64,000 nucleotides of DNA from NCBI RefSeq assembly GCF_000317045.1, contig NC_019703.1:2034501-2098500 (forward strand), read 5' to 3'. The stretch comes from Geitlerinema sp. PCC 7407. Its GTDB lineage: Bacteria > Cyanobacteriota > Cyanobacteriia > PCC-7407. Position numbers and translations under genes: made by a program. Numbering within the stretch: the stretch's first letter is position 1; the number at the start of each line of letters is the position of its first letter. This document shows positions 5,826 through 43,758 of the stretch, piece after piece. The notes under the pieces were generated by a model. That model was not told the DNA's origin, did no database searches, and saw only the letters and a program-made list of their open reading frames with translations.

Positions 5826-6272
5826 TGGACTCTGTATATTCTCTATTTAATCAAAATTTCTCAATCTCTCAATACTGGTTTCTGGCATTACATCTAGCCT
5901 GCGCTAATAAACAAAGAGTTCTTGAAGCTGAATTCAGTATTTGAAGTATAGAATTACACCAATAGGAAGTTAAAAAATAAATTATGAGAAACTGCATGAG
6001 CTTATTATGAGTTTTGTGGATTTAAAGAACTCTAAGAGGCTGACAAAATAACAACATTGAATTAAAGGTTTTGCCAACAAAATGTCCACTATTAATCTTG
6101 CTCTTTAAGATCTTTAGAGTCGTTGAAATAGCAATAAAAGATTTTGTGAGTGAGGATTGCTAACCGTATAACGGCGATCGCGATAGAGAAATCTGATTGA
6201 GATTACAGAGCATTGAAAATCGATAGAAAAGTCAAAGATAAATGGTATTGCTGAAAATCAGGAGACTTTCTG
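5826..6272. other. AT-rich intergenic region
   Basis: This 447-bp stretch separates the divergent haemagglutinin and DUF4278 genes. It is clearly more AT-rich than the rest of the window and has stop codons in all frames. One HIP1 octamer lies near 6174. It must hold both promoters, but I cannot pick convincing -35/-10 boxes. Confidence 0.5.
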
Positions 6273-6524
6273 ATGAAACTATGTTATCGCGGCACTGATT
6301 ACTCAATCCCTGTTCCTGCTCAAAACGCAGAATGCTTTGTGAGAAGTAATTTATGGACTAGTCTGACCTATCGTGGTAGCTGTTATCAGCTAAGTTCTCA
6401 TTTCTCTAATTCTTGTGCCCCTAATGCTTTGGATTTAGAGGCATTAGCTTTTCAGAAACTTCTGACGGCAAAGCAGAGATATCAGTTAACTTATCGTGGC
6501 GTTGTTTATGCTCTTGCATTTTGA
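6273..6524 (+). CDS. DUF4278 family small protein
   Basis: An 83-residue protein beginning MKLCYRGTDY and containing three YRG-type motifs (near residues 5, 35 and 74). This is the signature of the cyanobacterial DUF4278 family, whose function is unknown. An AGGAG ribosome-binding site sits about 8 bases before the ATG. It is soluble, with no signal peptide or membrane helix. It lies alone in AT-rich DNA between the haemagglutinin gene and an amidase remnant. The family call is firm; no role can be assigned. Confidence 0.75.
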   Translation: MKLCYRGTDYSIPVPAQNAECFVRSNLWTSLTYRGSCYQLSSHFSNSCAPNALDLEALAFQKLLTAKQRYQLTYRGVVYALAF

Positions 6525-33809: not shown

Positions 33810-36458
33810 ATGGTCTTTTTTGATACTCCTATGGCGCGCGCTCTTTGGTCTCGACTCTCTCTGATGACTTCGCTGGTGGCCCTGAGCGCGATCGCCGCTG
33901 TGGGGAGCAGCACACCGCTGATGGTTGCCAGTAGCCGGGCTCAGTCGCCCGTCGTCCAGCCCGCAGAGCAGGCCCAGGCCCAGGCGCTGACGATCTATCA
34001 GCCTTTGCAGCGGATTCCCTGGGAGGGGCAGTACACCACGGCCCAGGGCCTGAAGTATTTCGCGGTGGAGCCGTGGAGCGGCGCGCCGGTGTCGGAGGGG
34101 GCACTATCCGAGGCGCGGGCCATGGGCGATCGCCGCAAAGAGGCGGCGCTGCTGATCGACCAGGGCCTAGAGGCCTTTTTGGGAGAACAGTTTGAGCGGG
34201 GGGTGCAGGCGTACAAAGAGAGTCTGGCGATCGCCCGGGAGCTTGGCGATCGCTCCCTCCAGCGCTTGGCCCTGGGCAATCTCTCCCTCGCCTATGCCCA
34301 AAAAGGGATCTATAGCGCTGAGGGAATCGAGTCTCTCCAACAGTTTCACCAGCTGCTGCGCGAAGAGGGGACCGATCCATCTCTAGAGGGGATGGCCCTG
34401 GGAAATTTGGGCAAAGGATACTTTGGCGCAGATCTCTATGCTTTGGCCATTGAAACCCATCAGCAGCGGCGATCGCTGGCCCAGAAAACCGGCGATCGCC
34501 GAGGAGAGGCCCAGGCCTTAGGAGATCTGGGCTTGGTCTATCAAGCGCTGGGAGAGAGTGAGAAGGCGAGAGATCTCTATCAGCAGCAGTTGGCGATCGC
34601 CCAAAGCCTGCAAGACGAAGCGCTTCAGAGTTTGGCTCTGGGAAATTTGGGCATCGCGTACCATGCAGCAGGCAACTATGCCCAGGCTGTCCAGTTTCAG
34701 CAGCAGCGTCTCACCCTCGCCCAGAAAGCCGAAAATCGGCAGTGGGAAGCGGAGGCCTTGGCAAACCTGGCTGGCGCTCACTACAAGATGGGAGAAATCG
34801 ACCGGGCGATCGCCCTCTATGACCAGGCTTGGGAGACGGCTTGGCAGTTTCTCCGCGACCCCGATATTCTCTACGGCCTGCGCGGCAATCAAGGCCTCGC
34901 CTATTTCCAGAAAGGAGACTATGCCACCGCCGAGAAATACTATCAGGAGTATTACACCTACGTGCGATCGCGCAATAATCGGCGCGGTCAGGGAGTTGCC
35001 AAAAATAATATGGCGGTCTTGCAGATTCAGCGCGGAGATCTCACCGGCGCGGCCCGGACTCTGCGCGAAGGGGTGGCAGAGTGGGAAGATCTGCGATCGC
35101 GTCTAGGAGACAATGACGCCTACAAGATCTCTATCTTTGAGACCCAGCGAGCGCTCTATCAAAATCTCCAGTTTGTGCTGATGCAGCTGCGGCAGTCTGA
35201 CGCCTCTCTGGAAGTGGCCGAGCGGGCGCGGGCGCGCGCCTTTGCGGAGCTGCTGGCTCGACGCGTCTCACCCACCGACGAGCGATCCATTGAGATGGGC
35301 GCGGTGCCCAACCTGTCCCAGATTCAGCAGCTGGCCCAGTCTCAGCAGGCGACTTTTATTGTCTACTCTGTGATTAGCCAGACCTTTCGGCGGCCCCAGG
35401 CCCTGGAAGCGCGGGAGTCCCAGCTGCTGATCTGGGTGGTGCCGCCCCAGGGGGCGATCGCCGTGGAGACGGTGGACTTGGCGACGGCCCTGGACGGCCA
35501 AACCCTGGCGGACTGGGTGGGCCGCAGTCGGCAGTCCATCGGCGCGAGCGATCGCGGGTTGGGGGTCGCGAGTCGCGCCGGAGGAACCCGCGCCGCTGGC
35601 AGCGATCTCGACCAGCTCTATCAGTGGCTGATTGCCCCCGTCGCCCAATATTTGCCCCAAAATCCGGACGATCGGGTCGTCTTTGTGCCCCAAGATGCGC
35701 TCTTTTGGGTGCCTTTCGCCGCCCTCCGAGCCGCAGACGGCACTTACCTGATCGAGAAGCACACCCTCAGCGTCTCACCGTCTCTCCAGGTTTTGCAGCT
35801 GACGGAGCGCCTGCGGGCGCAGAACCGGGCCGCGACCTCTGCGTCTCTGGTCGTGGGCAATCCCACCATGCCCAAGGTGACTGTGGCTGCTGGGGAGCCG
35901 CCGGTGCCGCTGCCCAACCTGCCCGGTAGCGAGAGCGAGGCAAAGGCGATCGCCGATTTGCTCGGCACCCAGCCGCTGCTGGGCGCTCAGGCCACCAAGG
36001 GCGCTGTGCTCCAGCAGATGCGCTCTGCCTCTCTGATTCACCTGGCGACCCACGGGCTGATGGATGATTTTCGGGGGTTGGGCGTCCCGGGGGCGATCGC
36101 CCTTGCGCCCAGCGGCGCAGACGACGGCCTCCTGACCGCCAGCGATCTCCTCACTCTCCAGCTTCAGGCCAGGCTCATTGTCCTGAGCGCCTGCAACACC
36201 GGTCGCGGCAAGCTCACGGGCGACGGGGTCGTCGGCCTCTCGCGATCGCTGATCGCCGCCGGAACGCCCAGCCTGCTGGTCTCACTCTGGGCCGTCCCCG
36301 ATGCCCCCACCGCAGACCTCATGGTGACTTTTTATCAGCAGCTCCAGCAAGACCCGGACAAGGCCAAAGCCCTGCGGCAAGCCATGCTGGCCACCAAGGC
36401 CAAATATCCGGAGCCCTCTGCCTGGGCCGCTTTTACCCTGATCGGTGAGAGTCGCTAG
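33810..36458 (+). CDS. Secreted TPR-CHAT domain protein (second copy)
   Basis: An 882-residue protein with a signal peptide (residues ~1-45, cleaved near SSRAQS). TPR repeats cover about 90-450, with clear units such as ALGNLGIAYHAAGNYAQA. The C-terminal CHAT domain (about 590-880) keeps the dyad: His in LIHLATHGLMDD and Cys in LIVLSACNTGRG. It is a paralogue of the protein at 8961-11339 but lies away from the haemagglutinin cluster. The AGGAAATC site precedes the ATG at 33810; an ATG at 33831 is an alternative. Confidence 0.9.
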   Translation: MVFFDTPMARALWSRLSLMTSLVALSAIAAVGSSTPLMVASSRAQSPVVQPAEQAQAQALTIYQPLQRIPWEGQYTTAQGLKYFAVEPWSGAPVSEGALSEARAMGDRRKEAALLIDQGLEAFLGEQFERGVQAYKESLAIARELGDRSLQRLALGNLSLAYAQKGIYSAEGIESLQQFHQLLREEGTDPSLEGMALGNLGKGYFGADLYALAIETHQQRRSLAQKTGDRRGEAQALGDLGLVYQALGESEKARDLYQQQLAIAQSLQDEALQSLALGNLGIAYHAAGNYAQAVQFQQQRLTLAQKAENRQWEAEALANLAGAHYKMGEIDRAIALYDQAWETAWQFLRDPDILYGLRGNQGLAYFQKGDYATAEKYYQEYYTYVRSRNNRRGQGVAKNNMAVLQIQRGDLTGAARTLREGVAEWEDLRSRLGDNDAYKISIFETQRALYQNLQFVLMQLRQSDASLEVAERARARAFAELLARRVSPTDERSIEMGAVPNLSQIQQLAQSQQATFIVYSVISQTFRRPQALEARESQLLIWVVPPQGAIAVETVDLATALDGQTLADWVGRSRQSIGASDRGLGVASRAGGTRAAGSDLDQLYQWLIAPVAQYLPQNPDDRVVFVPQDALFWVPFAALRAADGTYLIEKHTLSVSPSLQVLQLTERLRAQNRAATSASLVVGNPTMPKVTVAAGEPPVPLPNLPGSESEAKAIADLLGTQPLLGAQATKGAVLQQMRSASLIHLATHGLMDDFRGLGVPGAIALAPSGADDGLLTASDLLTLQLQARLIVLSACNTGRGKLTGDGVVGLSRSLIAAGTPSLLVSLWAVPDAPTADLMVTFYQQLQQDPDKAKALRQAMLATKAKYPEPSAWAAFTLIGESR

Positions 36459-36546
36459 GGTGGAGCCCGCTCGAAACGTTCACGACGGACACTCTCTTTC
36501 GCCCCTTGGCGACACCATCAAGGAAATCCCAAAGTCTAACGCGTCC

Positions 36547-37227
36547 ATGGTTTCCTCAGACATTTCTATCCCGGCTCGTCCCCATCCTTTCCCTTTCGAT
36601 GGCGCTCATACAGCCCTGATCGCCATCGATCTGCAAAAAGACTTTTGTCACCCGGAGGGATACTGCGGGCAGGTCCTCAACGCGGATCTCACAGGTCTCC
36701 AGGCGATCGTCCCCCGAGTGCAGCAGCTCATTGCCTGGGCTCGCCAGCGAGATATCTGGATAATCTATACGCGCGAGAGTCATCGGCCAGATTTGAGAGA
36801 TCTCACCCCCAGCAAAAAGCTGCGATATATCAATGCCGGATATCCGGTTGGCAGCCTCGGGAAGCTGGGGCGATTTCTGATTGCTGGAGAGGCTGGAACG
36901 CAGCTTTTGGAGGAGTTTCAGCCCTTAGAAAATGAGCTGGTTCTCGATAAGCCTGCTCAGTCTATTTTTGTCGCGACTGACCTCGAAGCAAGACTGCGAT
37001 CGCGCGGTATCACCCATCTGCTTTTTGCGGGGGTCACGACGCAATGCTGCGTCCTCGGCAGCTACCGCCACGCCAGCGATCTGGGCTTCTATGGCCTCTT
37101 GCTAGAAGACTGCTGCGCAGCTCTCACCCCCAGTGAGCACCAAGCAGCTCTGGAGGTTATTACCAGTGAGGGAGGGGCGATTGGCTGGGTCAGTACATCT
37201 AAGGCGCTGATGGAGGCCGTGGGGTAG
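36547..37227 (+). CDS. Isochorismatase-family cysteine hydrolase
   Basis: A 226-residue cytosolic hydrolase read from the ATG at 36547; an in-frame GTG at 36445 would overlap the CHAT gene. The family triad is visible: Asp in LIAIDLQKDFC (residue ~27), Lys in LVLDKPAQS (residue ~139) and Cys in VTTQCCV (near residue 165). Relatives include nicotinamidase, biuret hydrolase and ureidoacrylate hydrolase, all cleaving amide C-N bonds. The substrate cannot be fixed from sequence. A 34-bp palindrome follows the stop. Confidence 0.85.
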   Translation: MVSSDISIPARPHPFPFDGAHTALIAIDLQKDFCHPEGYCGQVLNADLTGLQAIVPRVQQLIAWARQRDIWIIYTRESHRPDLRDLTPSKKLRYINAGYPVGSLGKLGRFLIAGEAGTQLLEEFQPLENELVLDKPAQSIFVATDLEARLRSRGITHLLFAGVTTQCCVLGSYRHASDLGFYGLLLEDCCAALTPSEHQAALEVITSEGGAIGWVSTSKALMEAVG

Positions 37228-37393: not shown

Positions 37394-39684
37394 ATGGAAA
37401 CCTCGGCCCGCCCCCAAACTAACGCCAAACAGTCCCCCACAAACCTGGTCAAAGCTCTCGTTCTCATCCTAGGAATTATCCTTTGGCAAAGCTGGCAACA
37501 ATACAATACCTCAGCGAACAAAAGGCGATCGCCCTCAAGATCGCGGCTCAAGCAGAGCTCCTGACCTCCCGCAGCGACAAAGCAAGCATCACCGGTGCGC
37601 TCCTCGCTGTCGAAGCCCAAAAACGCCTAGACAAGCTCAACCTATCCTCTGTAGAAGCTGACCGCGCCTTGCGTCAGGCTTTACGCTTTCTTCCCGGGCC
37701 TTCCATCCCGCTACAGCATGACGGTAATGTTTTAGCGACTAGTTTTAGTCCAGATGGATCAATCGTCGCCACTGGCAGCATTGACGATACGGCTCGCCTT
37801 TGGGATGCCAAAAGCGGCAAGCTTATCCACTTGCTTGCCCACAAAGATATAGTCCAAGCGGTAAGCTTCAGTCCAGACAGTTCTATGCTCATCACTGGGG
37901 GTGATGAGCCTATTGCCCGTATTTGGAATACCAAAACTGGTAAACTCCTGCACTCTCTTCAGCATGACGGTCCCATCTTCGATGTAGACTTCAGTCCCAA
38001 CGGCTCCCAGGTTGTTACTAGCAGCGATGATAAAACCGCGCGCCTCTGGGACGCTCAAACCGGTCAGCTTCTCCATACACTTCAAGATGAAAAGCCGTTA
38101 GAAATTGCGCGCTTTAGTCCTGATGGATCCATGGTTATGACAGCCAGTCAGGAGAGTCCAGCTCGTATCTGGAATGTCCAAACCGGTAAGCTCCTTCATT
38201 CTCTTCAGCACAAAAAAATAGAAAGCGTAAGCTTTAGTGAAGATGGCTCTATGGTTCTCACCGGCGGCTACGACAAAGTAGCGCGAATCTGGAGCTCAAA
38301 AACTGGCAAACTGCTCCAGGTTCTTCAGCACGAAATTCCAGTTACATCTGTGAGTTTTAGTCCAGATAACTCTAAGGTCATTACGGGGATTTGGGGCAGC
38401 GAAGAAAACATTTGGGCTGCAAACCTCTGGGACGCTAAAACCGGTAAATTGCTTCATGCTCTTCAACACACGGGAAATATCTTCGATACAGATTTTAGTC
38501 CCGACAGTTCTATGGTCATTACAAGCAGCTTTGATAAGACAGCTTATATTTGGAACACTGAAAATGGAGCACTTCTCCAGACTCTTCCTCATGAGCAAGC
38601 AGTGCTGCGTGTGGACTTTAGCCCAAATGGCTCACAGGTTATAACAGGAAGCGCCGATCACACAGCCCGCATCTGGAATATTGAGACGGTGCAAGAACCC
38701 CGATCATTTCAGCATCAGGGCTCGGTCAATAATCCAAGCCTTAGCCCTGATGGCTCCAAACTCATGACAGATAGGGATGATCACACAGTGCAGATTTGGG
38801 ATGTCAGTACGGGCCAGCTTCAGCACTCTCTTCAGCACGAAAACGAGGTGTATACCAAAGTCTTTAGTCCAGATGGCTCTAGTCTCGTAACTGGCAGCTC
38901 TGACTTGACAACCCGTATTTGGGATATCGACACTGGTCAGCTCACTCGTTCTCTCCTATTTAAGGAAGCTTTATCTGGCGCAAGCTTTAGTTCTAGCGGG
39001 TCCAAGATTGCTACAGGAAGGTATGGTCAAACTAGCTATATCTGGGACATGGAAACTGGCGATCTTCTTCAATCTCTTCAGCACGAACACACTATTTATA
39101 ACCTGATTTTTAGTCCTGACGGCTCCAAGCTCGCAGTAGATTGGGATGGAACCGCCTATATTTGGGATGCTCAAGCGGGTAAGCTCATACATTCTCTTGA
39201 GCCTGAATCGTGGTTTATCCGCGATTTAAGTTTTAGCTCAGATGGCTCCATGCTCGTTATGGCGAACTTTGATGCAGTAGAACTTTGGAGCACCGAAACC
39301 GGTAAACTCTTACGTTCTCTGCCCTATGAAAACTTTTTGTACAGTGTGAGATTTAGTCCTGATGGGTCTAAAGTTGTCGCAGGGAGTATTGATAATACAG
39401 CTCTTGTTTGGAGCACTCAGAACGGAACACCCCTCCACTCCCTTCAGCAAGAAAGCACCTTACGTGATGTTGCTTTTAGTCCGGACGGCTCCCACGTTAT
39501 TACAGAAAGTCAGGATAATACGGTACGCGTTTGGACTCTCTCATCAGACAGCTTGGTGAATGAAATCTGCAATCGGGTGACGCGCAATCTAAGCGCAATG
39601 GAGTGGAAAACACATGTCAGTGAAGATCTCAATCAGTATGAGCGAACCTGTGAAAATTTGTCGGCACATTCTAGCGTGCAATAG
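37394..39684 (+). pseudogene. Membrane-anchored 15-repeat WD40 protein, frameshifted by a 5-bp duplication
   Basis: The ATG at 37394 opens METSARPQTNA and a transmembrane helix (LVKALVLILGIILWQSWQQ). The frame is then lost at 37500-37509, where AATAC occurs twice in tandem. Removing one copy joins WQSWQQ directly to YLSEQKAIALK, the usual linker of this family, and the frame then stays open to 39684. The downstream part has 15 WD40 repeats (about 42 residues each, FSPDGS...RIWD pattern), probably two beta-propellers. As it stands, the intact repeat part could only start from the TTG at 37483 without its membrane anchor. The event may be true inactivation, slipped-strand variation or a sequence error. 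Confidence 0.75.
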
Positions 39685-39865: not shown

Positions 39866-40324
39866 CTAGTGACGAATCTGATCTGCCCAGGGCGTGAGTC
39901 GGCGAGAGATCCACTTCAGGACATAATCTAGCAGCAGACCAATGACGCCAATCAGCGCGATGCAAAAGAGAACCTTGTCGGTTTGCAAGAAGCGCTGGGC
40001 CTGAATGATGCGGAAACCAAGGCCATTTTGGGACGCGACCAGCTCCGCAATGACCAAGAAATTCCAGGCTCCCGAGATATTGACTCGCAGCGTGTCCAGG
40101 ATGCTGGGAAAGGCTGCCGGGATGATCACCTGAAACACCACATCGCGTCGGCTTGCCCCCATGGTATAGGCCACATTGATCATCTCATTGGGGATAAACT
40201 TCACCGCGTCCGCCACCATGATCGCGTTGTAGAGCACCACCCCCAGCATGATGATCAGAATTTTCGAGGGCTCCCCGAGGCCCAGCCAAATGACGATGAG
40301 GGGGACAAAGGCCGTCACGGGCAT
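39866..40324 (-). pseudogene. ABC transporter permease, 5'-truncated (NitT/TauT type)
   Basis: Only the C-terminal ~150-165 residues of an SsuC/TauC/NrtB-type permease remain. They include the diagnostic cytoplasmic loop (NVAYTMGASRRDVVFQVIIPAA) that contacts the ATPase. The frame is open upstream of the ATG at 40324, back to codons for LDSLFSPIVGTVRYMPV. Those residues also belong to the permease family and overlap, in another frame, the 3' end of the binding-protein gene. About 100 N-terminal residues, including the first helices, are absent. The deletion that removed them also removed the end of the neighbouring gene. Function is almost certainly lost. Confidence 0.8.
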
Positions 40325-41244
40325 ATAGCGGACGGTCCCGACAATGGGTGAGAAGAGGCTATCGAGACTGTAACGGTTTTATTACCTTCGTTGTCAAACA
40401 GCTTCACCCCCATTAGCTGCTCTTTGACTTCTTCCCCGGAGATACCTAGCTTCTTGCCCACAAGCCCAAGGGCCTCAGCATCCCCCGCATTCAGCAGCTT
40501 CACCGCCCGATCCACCGCCTGGAAATAGGCCTGCAAATCTGCCTTGCGAGACTGAATGAGTTCATCTCGGGCGACCACCACATCGGCGATCAGGTTGGTG
40601 TCTTTGGTTGAAAAGATCACTGCGCCGCCCCCCTGCTCAGCGCTGCGGCTGAGATAGGGCTCATAGGTGACGGCTGCGTCCACCTGCCGGGCCGCAAAGG
40701 CTGCCGCTGCGTCGGCGGCGGCCAAGTCTTTGATCACGACATCTTGTTCTGTGAGGCCTGCTTTTTCGAGGTAGGCGCGCAGCAGCACCTTTTCAAATAA
40801 GATATTTTCTCGAGCGACGGTCTTTCCTTTGATGTCTGCGGGTGACTGGATTTGGCGGCCCAATATGCCGTCGGAGCCGTTGGAGTAGTCTACTAAATAG
40901 ATAATTTTGATCGAGGGATCTTTGGCGGCCATTTGGACCGCATCCCCCGAGGTAAACCAGCCGAGATCCACTCGTCCAGCCAGGAAAGCGGTGATCTGTT
41001 CGCTGGCGCTTTGGAAAAAGAGATCTTGGACTTGGAGACCTTTTTCCGAGAAGAAATTTTTGCCGACGGCGACGTGGTGACCGCCGTAGCCAACCCAGTT
41101 GTTCGTTGCCGAAATTAAGGGACCCGTGGCGGCGGCGTCAGGAGCCCCATTATCGGCGTTGGGCTCCTGCGCACAGGCGATCGCCAATATCATCGCCGCG
41201 ATCGCCAACCCCAGCGATCGCATTATTTTAGAGATTTTTGCCAT
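40315..41244 (-). pseudogene. ABC transporter substrate-binding lipoprotein, 3'-truncated (NitT/TauT type)
   Basis: A 309-residue frame from the ATG at 41244. It has a lipoprotein signal (lipobox-like AIAC near residue 25), then the binding-protein fold: NNWVGYGGHHVAVGKNFF, FLAGRVDLGWFTSGDA, and FAARQVDAAVTYEPYLS. After LMGVKLFDNEGNKT the sequence stops looking like the family and runs into DNA that encodes permease residues in another frame, ending with a stop at 40315. About 30 or more C-terminal residues are lost. Because the operon is led by a guanidine-I riboswitch, the original ligand was probably guanidine or a relative. The truncated lobe may or may not fold. Confidence 0.8.
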
Positions 41245-41301: not shown

Positions 41302-42159
41302 TCAAGCTTCTGCGGTGGGACCGCGCAGGGCCTGCAAAACTTGGCGCTTGATCTCCACAAATTCCGGTGAGAGTTTGATATCCAAATCTCGATGCTCCGG
41401 TAGCTGGATCCCAATCTCGGACTCGATGCGGCCCGGATGCGCCCCCATCACATACACCCGCTGCGAGAGATAGATCGCCTCTTCTACATCGTGGGTGATC
41501 ATCAGCACGGTGATATGGGTTTGCTCCCACAGCTCCAGCAAGAACTGCTGCATCTGCTCCTTGGTCTGGGCGTCCAGCGCGCCAAAGGGCTCATCCATCA
41601 GCAAGACCGCCGGTTCATTGGCCAGGGCGCGGGCGATCGCCACTCGCTGCTTCATACCCCCCGAGAGCTGCTTGGGGTAGCTGTTGGCAAAGCGGCCGAG
41701 GCCCACTACCTCCAAGAAATACCTCACGCGATCGCGCTGCTGCGCCTTGGGCATCCTCTGAAACTGCAGCCCAAAGGCCACATTTTGGGCCACCGTCAAC
41801 CACGGATAGAGGGTATATCCCTGGAACACCATGCCCCGGTCTGAGCCCGGTCGGCCCGTCACGCACTGGCCATCTACCATCACCCGTCCCGACGTCGGCG
41901 GCACCAGCCCCGCAATGATATTCAGCAGGGTTGATTTGCCGCAGCCGGAGGAGCCCACCAGACACACCAGCTCTCGCTCAAAGATCTGAAAATTCACCTC
42001 CTCTAGCACCGTGAGCGGTTTTTGGTGTTTTACCCCATAGGATTTGTGGATATTTTGCACCTCTAGTTTGATGGCCGGTCCGGCGATCGCGGCGCTGGTC
42101 CGATCCGCTTGGACGGCTCGTTCGAACATGTTCTGAAGTCCTGGATAGGTCTTGATCAT
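41302..42159 (-). CDS. ABC transporter ATP-binding protein (NitT/TauT type) under guanidine-I riboswitch
   Basis: A 285-residue ATPase from the ATG at 42159. Walker A is GSSGCGKST, the Q-loop region is VFQGYTLYPW, the signature is LSGGMKQR, Walker B is VLLMDEPFGALDAQ and the switch His is in MITHD. It closely matches the SsuB/TauB/NrtC-type subunits that power import of small nitrogen or sulfur compounds. It is the first gene after the riboswitch (42254-42374) and intrinsic terminator. The ATPase itself looks complete, but its permease and binding partners downstream are truncated, so it may be idle or serve another transporter. Guanidine as substrate is inferred from the riboswitch. Confidence 0.88.
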   Translation of the reverse strand: MIKTYPGLQNMFERAVQADRTSAAIAGPAIKLEVQNIHKSYGVKHQKPLTVLEEVNFQIFERELVCLVGSSGCGKSTLLNIIAGLVPPTSGRVMVDGQCVTGRPGSDRGMVFQGYTLYPWLTVAQNVAFGLQFQRMPKAQQRDRVRYFLEVVGLGRFANSYPKQLSGGMKQRVAIARALANEPAVLLMDEPFGALDAQTKEQMQQFLLELWEQTHITVLMITHDVEEAIYLSQRVYVMGAHPGRIESEIGIQLPEHRDLDIKLSPEFVEIKRQVLQALRGPTAEA

Positions 42160-42218
42160 TTCGAAAACTCCGGGGCATAAAGGACAGCCATCGAGAGAGC
42201 TCTCGGGAAAACATAAAC

Positions 42219-42268
42219 AAAAGCCCAGGAGAGACGCAGCGATCGCTGGACAGCTCTCCCGGGCTTTT
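42219..42268 (-). terminator. Riboswitch-controlled intrinsic terminator
   Basis: On the minus strand AAAAGCCCGGGAGAG pairs with CTCTCCTGGGCTTTT (positions 42254-42268 and 42219-42233, one mismatch) and is followed by a T-rich run. The first arm is also the 3' part of the riboswitch aptamer. Ligand binding and terminator formation are therefore mutually exclusive: an ON switch. Confidence 0.88.
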
Positions 42269-42374
42269 ATCCCGCCGTGTAATTCACTGGATCTTCCCAC
42301 CGGAAAACCTAGGAACCGACCTCTCTCGGACCAGACGCCGCACCCAAAAATGGACCGGAACCCTAGAGGTCTGC
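42254..42374 (-). promoter_or_regulatory. Guanidine-I (ykkC) riboswitch
   Basis: Read on the minus strand, the leader of the ABC operon contains the conserved blocks of the ykkC/guanidine-I aptamer in order: CTCTAGGGTTCCGG, then CTGGTCCGAGAGAGG, then ACACGGCGGGATAAAAGCCC and GGGAGA. GACCTCT near the start pairs with AGAGGTC further on, forming P1. Guanidine-I riboswitches bind guanidinium and turn on export, degradation or uptake genes. The expression platform is the terminator at 42219-42268. The leader is about 95 bases from the ATPase start codon. Identification rests on these blocks and their order, which I consider diagnostic. Confidence 0.94.
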
Positions 42375-42552
42375 TTAATACTGCAATGAGGAGTCTCAGC
42401 AAAAGAGTTCTCCCCGAATACCAATACTTATAACGAGTTATGTCAGGGGCATTTGTATCAAAAACAACGGAAGCCCCGCGATCGCCCGTTTCGATCTCGA
42501 GTTGATGTTTTGGGGCCTGCAGCCCTACACTCACTCATCATCACCAACCCCC

Positions 42553-43758
42553 ATGTTCTCTCTCCGCAGCGGCCTGTATCGTCGTCCCCTTCCTCCTGAC
42601 TGCATTGCTTTCTCCTCCACCGAGGGCCGGACCATTTTTCGCGAAGCCCTGGCCCAAGGCGGTATGGAAGGATACTTTGTTTTAGCGGAGCAGTTTCATA
42701 CCCAGGCTGATCCGGCGTTTTGTGGTTTGGGCACCATGGTTGTCGTGCTCAATGCCCTTGCCATCGATCCAGGCCGGATTTGGCGCGGCGTGTGGCGCTG
42801 GTATGGCGAAGAGATGCTGGACTGCTGCCAGCCGCTCTCGACCATTCAGCAGCAGGGTATCTCCATGGATGAGTTTGTCTGCATTGCTCGCTGCAACGGA
42901 GCCCAGGTCACCGCCCATCGCTTTGCAGACAGCACCCTGGAGGCGTTTCGCGAGACTCTCAAGCAGGTGACGGCCTCCCCCCACGGCGTCCACATGGTCG
43001 TTAGCTACAGCCGACAGGTGCTTGGCCAAACGGGAGACGGGCATTTCTCCCCCGTGGGGGGCTACCACCCCGAAAAGGATTTGGTGCTGCTGCTCGATGT
43101 TGCCCGGTTTAAATATCCTCCTCACTGGGTACCGGTTTCTTTGCTCTGGCAGGCCTTTGAGCCGGTCGATCCAGTGACTCAGCGCAGTCGCGGCTATCTG
43201 GTGCTGCAACCAAGCGCCGAGAGCGAAGGAGGACTGCTGCAAGTGGGCCTCCATCCGCAGCAGTGGCACCAGGCGATCGCCCCTCATCTCGCCGAAACCC
43301 TGCCCAACTCCCTTGCCGATGCCCCATCCCCCACGCAGGCGATCGCCCGCTTGATTGAGCACTTACCGGAGACTTTTCTTGAGCTTCTACAGCTTTCTGC
43401 GTCTCCCCAAAGCCGCGATCGCCTCCAGGCCTTACACCGCGACCTAGAGCGCCAGCCGCTTTTTTCCCAGATTCAGCAGGTGTTGCAGATCCCGCTCGAC
43501 AGCCCCATGCTGCGACAGTGGTCTCGCTCAGCCCTCGCCGACCCCCAAAACCCCCCGCCCCTGAGCTTTGGCGCTTGGCTAACGCTGCTTCTCTTGGCCT
43601 GTCCGCCAACGCTCTATCGCACCCTCTCCCCCCAGATCCAAGCTTGGTTTGACCAGGTTCGCGATCCCGCTTCTCTGCCTGCGGATCTCCAGCGAGAGGT
43701 CGCCCACCTCCAGCAACAAATAGCCGCCCTAGAAGACTTCGGTCGAGGCCATGCTTAG
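42553..43758 (+). CDS. Phytochelatin synthase, full-length eukaryote-like form
   Basis: A 401-residue enzyme from the ATG at 42553. The N-terminal ~215 residues follow the plant/fungal enzyme closely: LYRRPLP, FSSTEGR, then the catalytic Cys in PAFCGLGTM (residue ~57), VVLNALAIDPGR, WRW...EEMLDCC, His in GDGHFSPVGGY and Asp in LLDVARFKYPPHWVP. It transfers gamma-glutamylcysteine units between glutathione molecules to make metal-binding phytochelatins, or cleaves glycine from glutathione. The best-known cyanobacterial enzyme is a ~240-residue half-size protein without the C-terminal domain. Here ~185 further residues follow. The gene is divergent from the riboswitch-led ABC operon and ends 24 bp before the convergent desaturase gene. 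Confidence 0.93.
   Translation: MFSLRSGLYRRPLPPDCIAFSSTEGRTIFREALAQGGMEGYFVLAEQFHTQADPAFCGLGTMVVVLNALAIDPGRIWRGVWRWYGEEMLDCCQPLSTIQQQGISMDEFVCIARCNGAQVTAHRFADSTLEAFRETLKQVTASPHGVHMVVSYSRQVLGQTGDGHFSPVGGYHPEKDLVLLLDVARFKYPPHWVPVSLLWQAFEPVDPVTQRSRGYLVLQPSAESEGGLLQVGLHPQQWHQAIAPHLAETLPNSLADAPSPTQAIARLIEHLPETFLELLQLSASPQSRDRLQALHRDLERQPLFSQIQQVLQIPLDSPMLRQWSRSALADPQNPPPLSFGAWLTLLLLACPPTLYRTLSPQIQAWFDQVRDPASLPADLQREVAHLQQQIAALEDFGRGHA

Follow-up and report, generated by a model that had tools for sequence, protein, structure and literature searches.

A guanidine-I riboswitch with an overlapping terminator heads a probable former import operon, broken by deletion, in Geitlerinema sp. PCC 7407

In the cyanobacterium Synechocystis sp. 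PCC 6803, the guanidine operon sll1077-sll1082 comprises gdmH, hypA and hypB together with genes for a substrate-binding protein (SBP), a permease and an ATPase (PMC8390497). Guanidine is known to permit transcription in the guanidine-I riboswitch class (PMC11410670, PMC12186494). The locus described here lies in a window of 64,000 nucleotides of the Geitlerinema sp. PCC 7407 genome (NC_019703.1, positions 2,034,501 to 2,098,500). It shares with the Synechocystis operon a guanidine-I leader and ABC transporter genes of the NitT/TauT type, and this genome's GdmH aligns with its Synechocystis counterpart along its length. In contrast to sll1077-sll1082, however, this genome has two separately switched loci, and the ABC set in the window belongs to another subfamily, has its ATPase gene first, and is broken by a deletion. 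We consider it highly probable that the window holds a guanidine-I antitermination switch at the head of a former import operon that was broken by an internal deletion. What is new here is the operon's broken condition, along with a wider association of guanidine-I with a ligase gene in cyanobacteria.

The guanidine-I aptamer and its terminator

The initial annotation had read a guanidine-I riboswitch by eye at 42219-42374, with all conserved ykkC/guanidine-I blocks in order on the minus strand, and had named a covariance scan as the check. That scan (cmscan) confirms the riboswitch and shows the proposed coordinates to be right to within a few bases. RF00442 matches 42377-42254 on the minus strand over model positions 1-107 of 107, at 74.7 bits (E 1.9e-11) against a gathering cut-off of 63 bits, and is the sole Rfam match in the entire window. 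The elements of the switch are as follows:

42254..42377, minus strand: Guanidine-I (ykkC) riboswitch aptamer (RF00442, 74.7 bits, full model)
42261..42273, minus strand: aptamer helix P3, GGGATAAAAGCCC, the antiterminator side of the switch (Rfam alignment and position)
42215..42272, minus strand: intrinsic terminator, with 5' arm 42272-42254 (common to P3), 3' arm 42233-42215 and a T-rich tail to ~42208 (helix score, folding energy, minimum-energy fold)

The consensus blocks of the family, CUAGGGUUCCG, CUGGUCCGAGAG, ACACGG and GGGAUAAAAGCCCGGGAGA, are all present and in order; they are read here as CTAGGGTTCCG at 42366-42356, GGTCCGAGAG at 42332-42323, ACACGG at 42280-42275 and GGGATAAAAGCCC (P3) at 42273-42261. 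Judged by this alignment, the RNA is a guanidine-I class riboswitch and an ordinary addition to RF00442. It resembles the described family (ykkC-yxkD) in its whole consensus, its score above the cut-off and its transcription-terminator platform overlapping P3, and nothing essential differs; its terminator loop carries the cyanobacterial GCGATCGC repeat. In a 400-base scan, matches to other Rfam families, including miRNA-like ones at the terminator, fell far under their thresholds. The aptamer lies in the 5' leader of genes that we count as guanidine-related because their relatives are linked to gdmH-hypAB (see below), and the ATPase start is ~95 nt downstream. Divergent from the riboswitch operon is a phytochelatin synthase gene (42502-43758, plus strand), which encodes 401 amino acids from an ATG at ~42553; the published length of the Geitlerinema sp. 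PCC 7407 enzyme is 401 amino acids (PMC7411734).

The 5' arm of the terminator (42272-42254) is made up of the P3 3' strand plus the GGGAGAG that comes after it. This stretch, GGATAAAAGCCCGGGAGAG, pairs over 19 nt with CTCTCCTGGGCTTTTGTTT (42233-42215), after which more T follows. The helix scores 40, whereas dinucleotide-preserving shuffles of the downstream DNA gave at most 31 in 100 trials, bearing out the original reading of the aptamer's 3' arm as the first arm of a terminator followed by T's. The folding energy of the terminator is -33.5 kcal/mol against -5.7 kcal/mol for P3 alone, and forcing P3 in the full-length RNA costs ~10 kcal/mol. As in an expression platform, the hairpin is stable, mutually exclusive with P3 and followed by a U tract.

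Because the P3 strand and the terminator overlap, the element would be an ON switch acting by antitermination, which supports the proposed mechanism of a ligand that prevents termination. Without guanidine, the downstream arm would capture the aptamer 3' strand and RNA polymerase would halt at the T tract (~42222-42208), while with guanidine P3 and the ligand pocket would be held, no terminator would form and the operon would be transcribed. The energies suit an ON switch under kinetic control, with the ligand having to stabilize P3 ahead of synthesis of the terminator arm, and a response to the ligand in vivo is predicted on these grounds. The overlap appears to be a conserved design, since among 28 cyanobacterial sites tested in this way, no more than 1 shuffle in 100 equalled the helix at 16 and no more than 3 in 100 did so at 23. 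A few of the 28 (L010, L015, L029 and L031) do not show it and may use another platform.

Upstream of the riboswitch, a sigma-70 consensus scan found no promoter, and no NtcA box (GTAN8TAC) is present. A scan for short-loop terminators returned no standard one at the riboswitch site, as the loop of this terminator exceeds the limit of that scan.

Genes under the switch and the deletion junction

The following features lie downstream of the terminator:

41302..42159, minus strand: ABC transporter ATP-binding protein, 285 amino acids, intact, NitT/TauT type (PF00005, TauB/SsuB-like models)
40315..41244, minus strand: SBP, truncated (SsuA-family/NMT1; alignment to L053 and L054; start placed by relatives)
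40372..40373, minus strand: deletion junction (blastn and distances)
39866..40372, minus strand: permease remnant, original start lost, longest open reading frame from the ATG at 40324 (identity to relatives)

Consistently with the initial annotation, NCBIfam and Pfam models assign the ATPase, the SBP and the permease piece to the NitT/TauT type. The ATPase is 72-76% identical to its relatives over its length. Homology of the SBP stops at ...EGNKT (~40373) and is followed by ~19 out-of-frame residues; with its C-terminus missing after EGNK, the protein is short of about its last 46 residues. Its PDB relatives are weak and of the sulfonate and nitrate type. The permease remnant comprises the C-terminal 168 of ~283 residues, about the first 115 being missing together with the N-terminal hydrophobic segments, and is 88-89% identical to residues 116-283 of its relatives, which are 91% identical among themselves in this part. 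Neither the SBP nor the permease remnant contains stops. Of the parts of a functional NitT/TauT importer, an intact ATPase is thus present, and a complete permease and a complete SBP are absent. The earlier claim of a guanidine transporter below the switch therefore stands only in part. Guanidine, or a close relative of it, is a likely original import substrate by the relatives' linkage to gdmH-hypAB, but with the SBP and permease truncated across an out-of-frame junction the assignment fits the relatives and not a working transporter in this strain.

At the junction (40373/40372), SBP codon ~290 runs into permease codon ~116 with a change of frame. By blastn it maps to a single point against four relatives (L053-L056), and the SBP and permease protein alignments break there. 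The missing piece amounts to ~3.5-3.8 kb in comparison with L053-L056 and L082, in which all three inserted enzyme genes are present, and to ~2.0 kb in comparison with the short form in L078, with the ligase alone in between. The deletion, which is known from one assembly, was probably ~3.5 kb in size and at least 2 kb; SBP-permease spacing varies in the relatives (2.0-3.8 kb), which leaves uncertain what this piece originally contained.

In a class-wide search, which gave 72 permease matches from 65 genomes, the match begins at query residue 1-18 in every case but that of the window's copy, which starts at residue 115 of 283 and is the only one of the 72 without its N-terminus. For those lost genes that were tested (permease start, creatininase and ligase), the rest of the genome yielded no orthologue; the best matches there reached 36% for the creatininase, 41% over part of the ligase and 29% for the permease; relocation of these genes within the genome is thereby ruled out. 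A natural SBP-permease fusion is also ruled out, since the two genes lie in different frames here and are complete and separate in every relative. Given the lack of stops and the high identity of the permease piece, the loss looks recent, possibly as recent as culture. With no sign of long neutral decay in these remnants, one must suppose either a recent loss or retention of the permease remnant for some purpose.

Relatives of the operon and the link to guanidine breakdown

The ATPase-SBP pair is also found on eleven other cyanobacterial contigs (L053-L056 and L077-L083). A guanidine-I at or above the cut-off lies upstream of the pair in nine of them (L053-L056, L077, L078, L079, L082 and L083); upstream of the pair, none reaching the cut-off was found in L080, and none was found in L081, a short contig. 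The next genes are visible in nine contigs (L053-L056, L078, L079, L080, L082 and L083), and in complete relatives one to three enzyme genes separate the SBP and the permease. All nine contigs have a type III glutamate-ammonia/methylamine ligase in between (the L054 copy matches TIGR03105 at 592.7 bits against a cut-off of 469.6), seven have a creatininase-family protein and five a close MBL-fold protein. The window is like this ABC-enzyme operon in its orthologous ATPase, SBP and permease and in the position of its riboswitch (8/9 contigs, not L080), while the relatives are complete and the window lacks the middle.

Beyond the permease remnant, the window contains an isochorismatase-fold hydrolase gene (36445-37227, plus strand), whose nearest family is biuret amidohydrolase (195.9 bits, under the cut-off of 370). 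In L053 and L082 an orthologue of this gene faces the permease gene convergently, which makes the gene a probable member of the same neighborhood; L054-L056 have a different isochorismatase-fold gene behind the permease, on the strand of the operon. The permease remnant and the isochorismatase gene are separated by a gene for a WD40-repeat protein (37483-39684, plus strand) that L053 and L082 lack at that position, so an insertion may have occurred in this region in addition to the deletion.

The second guanidine-I of this genome (C1:2860718-2860848, minus strand, 80.5 bits) precedes an intact gdmH-hypA-hypB operon (L003), in which gdmH lies ~0.78 Mb from the window's riboswitch. The encoded GdmH scores 774 bits against the solved guanidine hydrolase (7esr/7oi1), and the active-site stretches compared are identical. 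Within the ~14 kb examined behind gdmH-hypA-hypB, there is no SBP or permease homologue of the window's type, and the only ABC ATPase is distant (29%) and on the other strand. Linkage is found in other genomes: gdmH-hypA-hypB, with its own guanidine-I, is directly divergent from the ATPase-SBP operon in L053, hypA-hypB is immediately upstream of ATPase-SBP in L081, and the ligase sits inside the gdmH operon in L061. These linkages point to guanidine or something close as the substrate of the transporter, and we infer that guanidine, or a close relative of it, was likely the original import substrate of the operon in the window. The window SBP is ~25-31% identical to SBPs near gdmH in other genomes. 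To judge from these gene sets, guanidine sensing and breakdown look intact in this strain, and this importer looks recently broken. Back-to-back guanidine-I pairs occur in one intergenic region each in L053 (5919-6145, minus strand, and 6387-6513, plus strand) and L062 (5676-5786, minus strand, and 6069-6179, plus strand), where each riboswitch apparently serves one divergent operon.

Class-wide, guanidine-I was found by hand upstream of the ligase, on the same strand and within 7 kb, at at least 20 loci. At at least seven, the type III ligase is the first gene after the riboswitch, and its start lies ~90-140 nt behind guanidine-I in G133 C9, G147 C34, G175 C32, G235 C20, G325 C56, G339 C493 and G360 C54. 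The occurrence of the ligase directly behind guanidine-I in other cyanobacteria would make it an overlooked member of the guanidine regulon. Its nearest PDB relative is a glutamate-methylamine ligase (9qur). Close creatininase-family orthologues (19 matches in 18 genomes) are neighbors of this ligase in 18 of the 19 cases, as read by hand, and form a conserved pair with it; some copies of the pair, e.g., in G056, have no riboswitch nearby. It is tempting to assume that the ligase, often together with the creatininase-family and MBL-fold enzymes, could provide an assimilation route for a guanidino compound, e.g., methylguanidine. Only tentatively do we suggest that the locus is a decayed second cyanobacterial guanidine operon that served more than import, namely ligase-based assimilation, and that this pathway is being lost while the guanidine hydrolase is kept. 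Among the papers searched, none joins guanidine and a riboswitch with a creatininase or a methylamine ligase, and four mention a guanidine riboswitch together with glutamine synthetase; an earlier mention of the ligase association may exist.

Present state of the operon

The ancestral operon would have been an import and assimilation unit made up of an ATPase, an SBP, one or more enzymes and a permease, from which the internal deletion would have taken the enzymes along with the C-terminal end of the SBP and the N-terminal end of the permease. The switch would now mostly drive an intact ATPase and two non-functional remnants, and it probably controls a mostly dead operon. The full model of the initial annotation, a riboswitch controlling a working guanidine ABC importer in this strain, is very unlikely. 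It agrees with the intact ATPase, the correct family and the strong aptamer and terminator, and an overlap between the SBP stop and the permease ATG region at 40324 could allow coupled translation of the permease remnant; however, permease residues 1-115, and with them the N-terminal hydrophobic segments, are missing, the SBP lacks its C-terminus, and the genome has no second copy of this permease. An operon that is reduced and not dead, with an ATPase kept under guanidine control to power another permease, would explain why the ATPase is full length and conserved. The genome has four other permeases of the same superfamily, but these are merely 26-29% identical over the matched part, and NitT/TauT systems normally have dedicated ATPases, making such an exchange of parts improbable.

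An assembly or culture artefact, with a complete operon in the natural strain, is an unlikely source of the deletion. The genome is a single closed-size contig (4,681,111 bases), and since the junction sides share at most a few bases in relatives and the flanks contain no long repeat, there is no obvious cause for an assembly collapse; on the other hand, the remnants are undecayed, and this is the single genome of its family in the comparison set, so no sister strain confirms the deletion. As for the RNA itself, subtype-2 ykkC RNAs bind ppGpp or PRPP and belong to the same overall fold family, and the Rfam library used may be without models for them. Yet the Guanidine-I cut-off was passed with every conserved block present, and the genome's other guanidine-I copy precedes a guanidine hydrolase, which leaves a negligible chance that this RNA is a ykkC look-alike with another ligand. 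The reading we prefer, a guanidine-I antitermination switch heading a broken import operon, takes the aptamer class, the terminator overlap, the gene identities and the deletion junction from sequence, and from the truncations a loss of transport would follow.

The locus illustrates that transporter genes behind a riboswitch need not form a working transporter. A genome whose switch and guanidine hydrolase are intact and whose importer is broken represents a natural knock-out, and the strain is predicted to still sense and degrade internal guanidine while lacking this uptake route. The relatives, in turn, point to an additional guanidine-controlled ligase, whose substrate would be easy to test.
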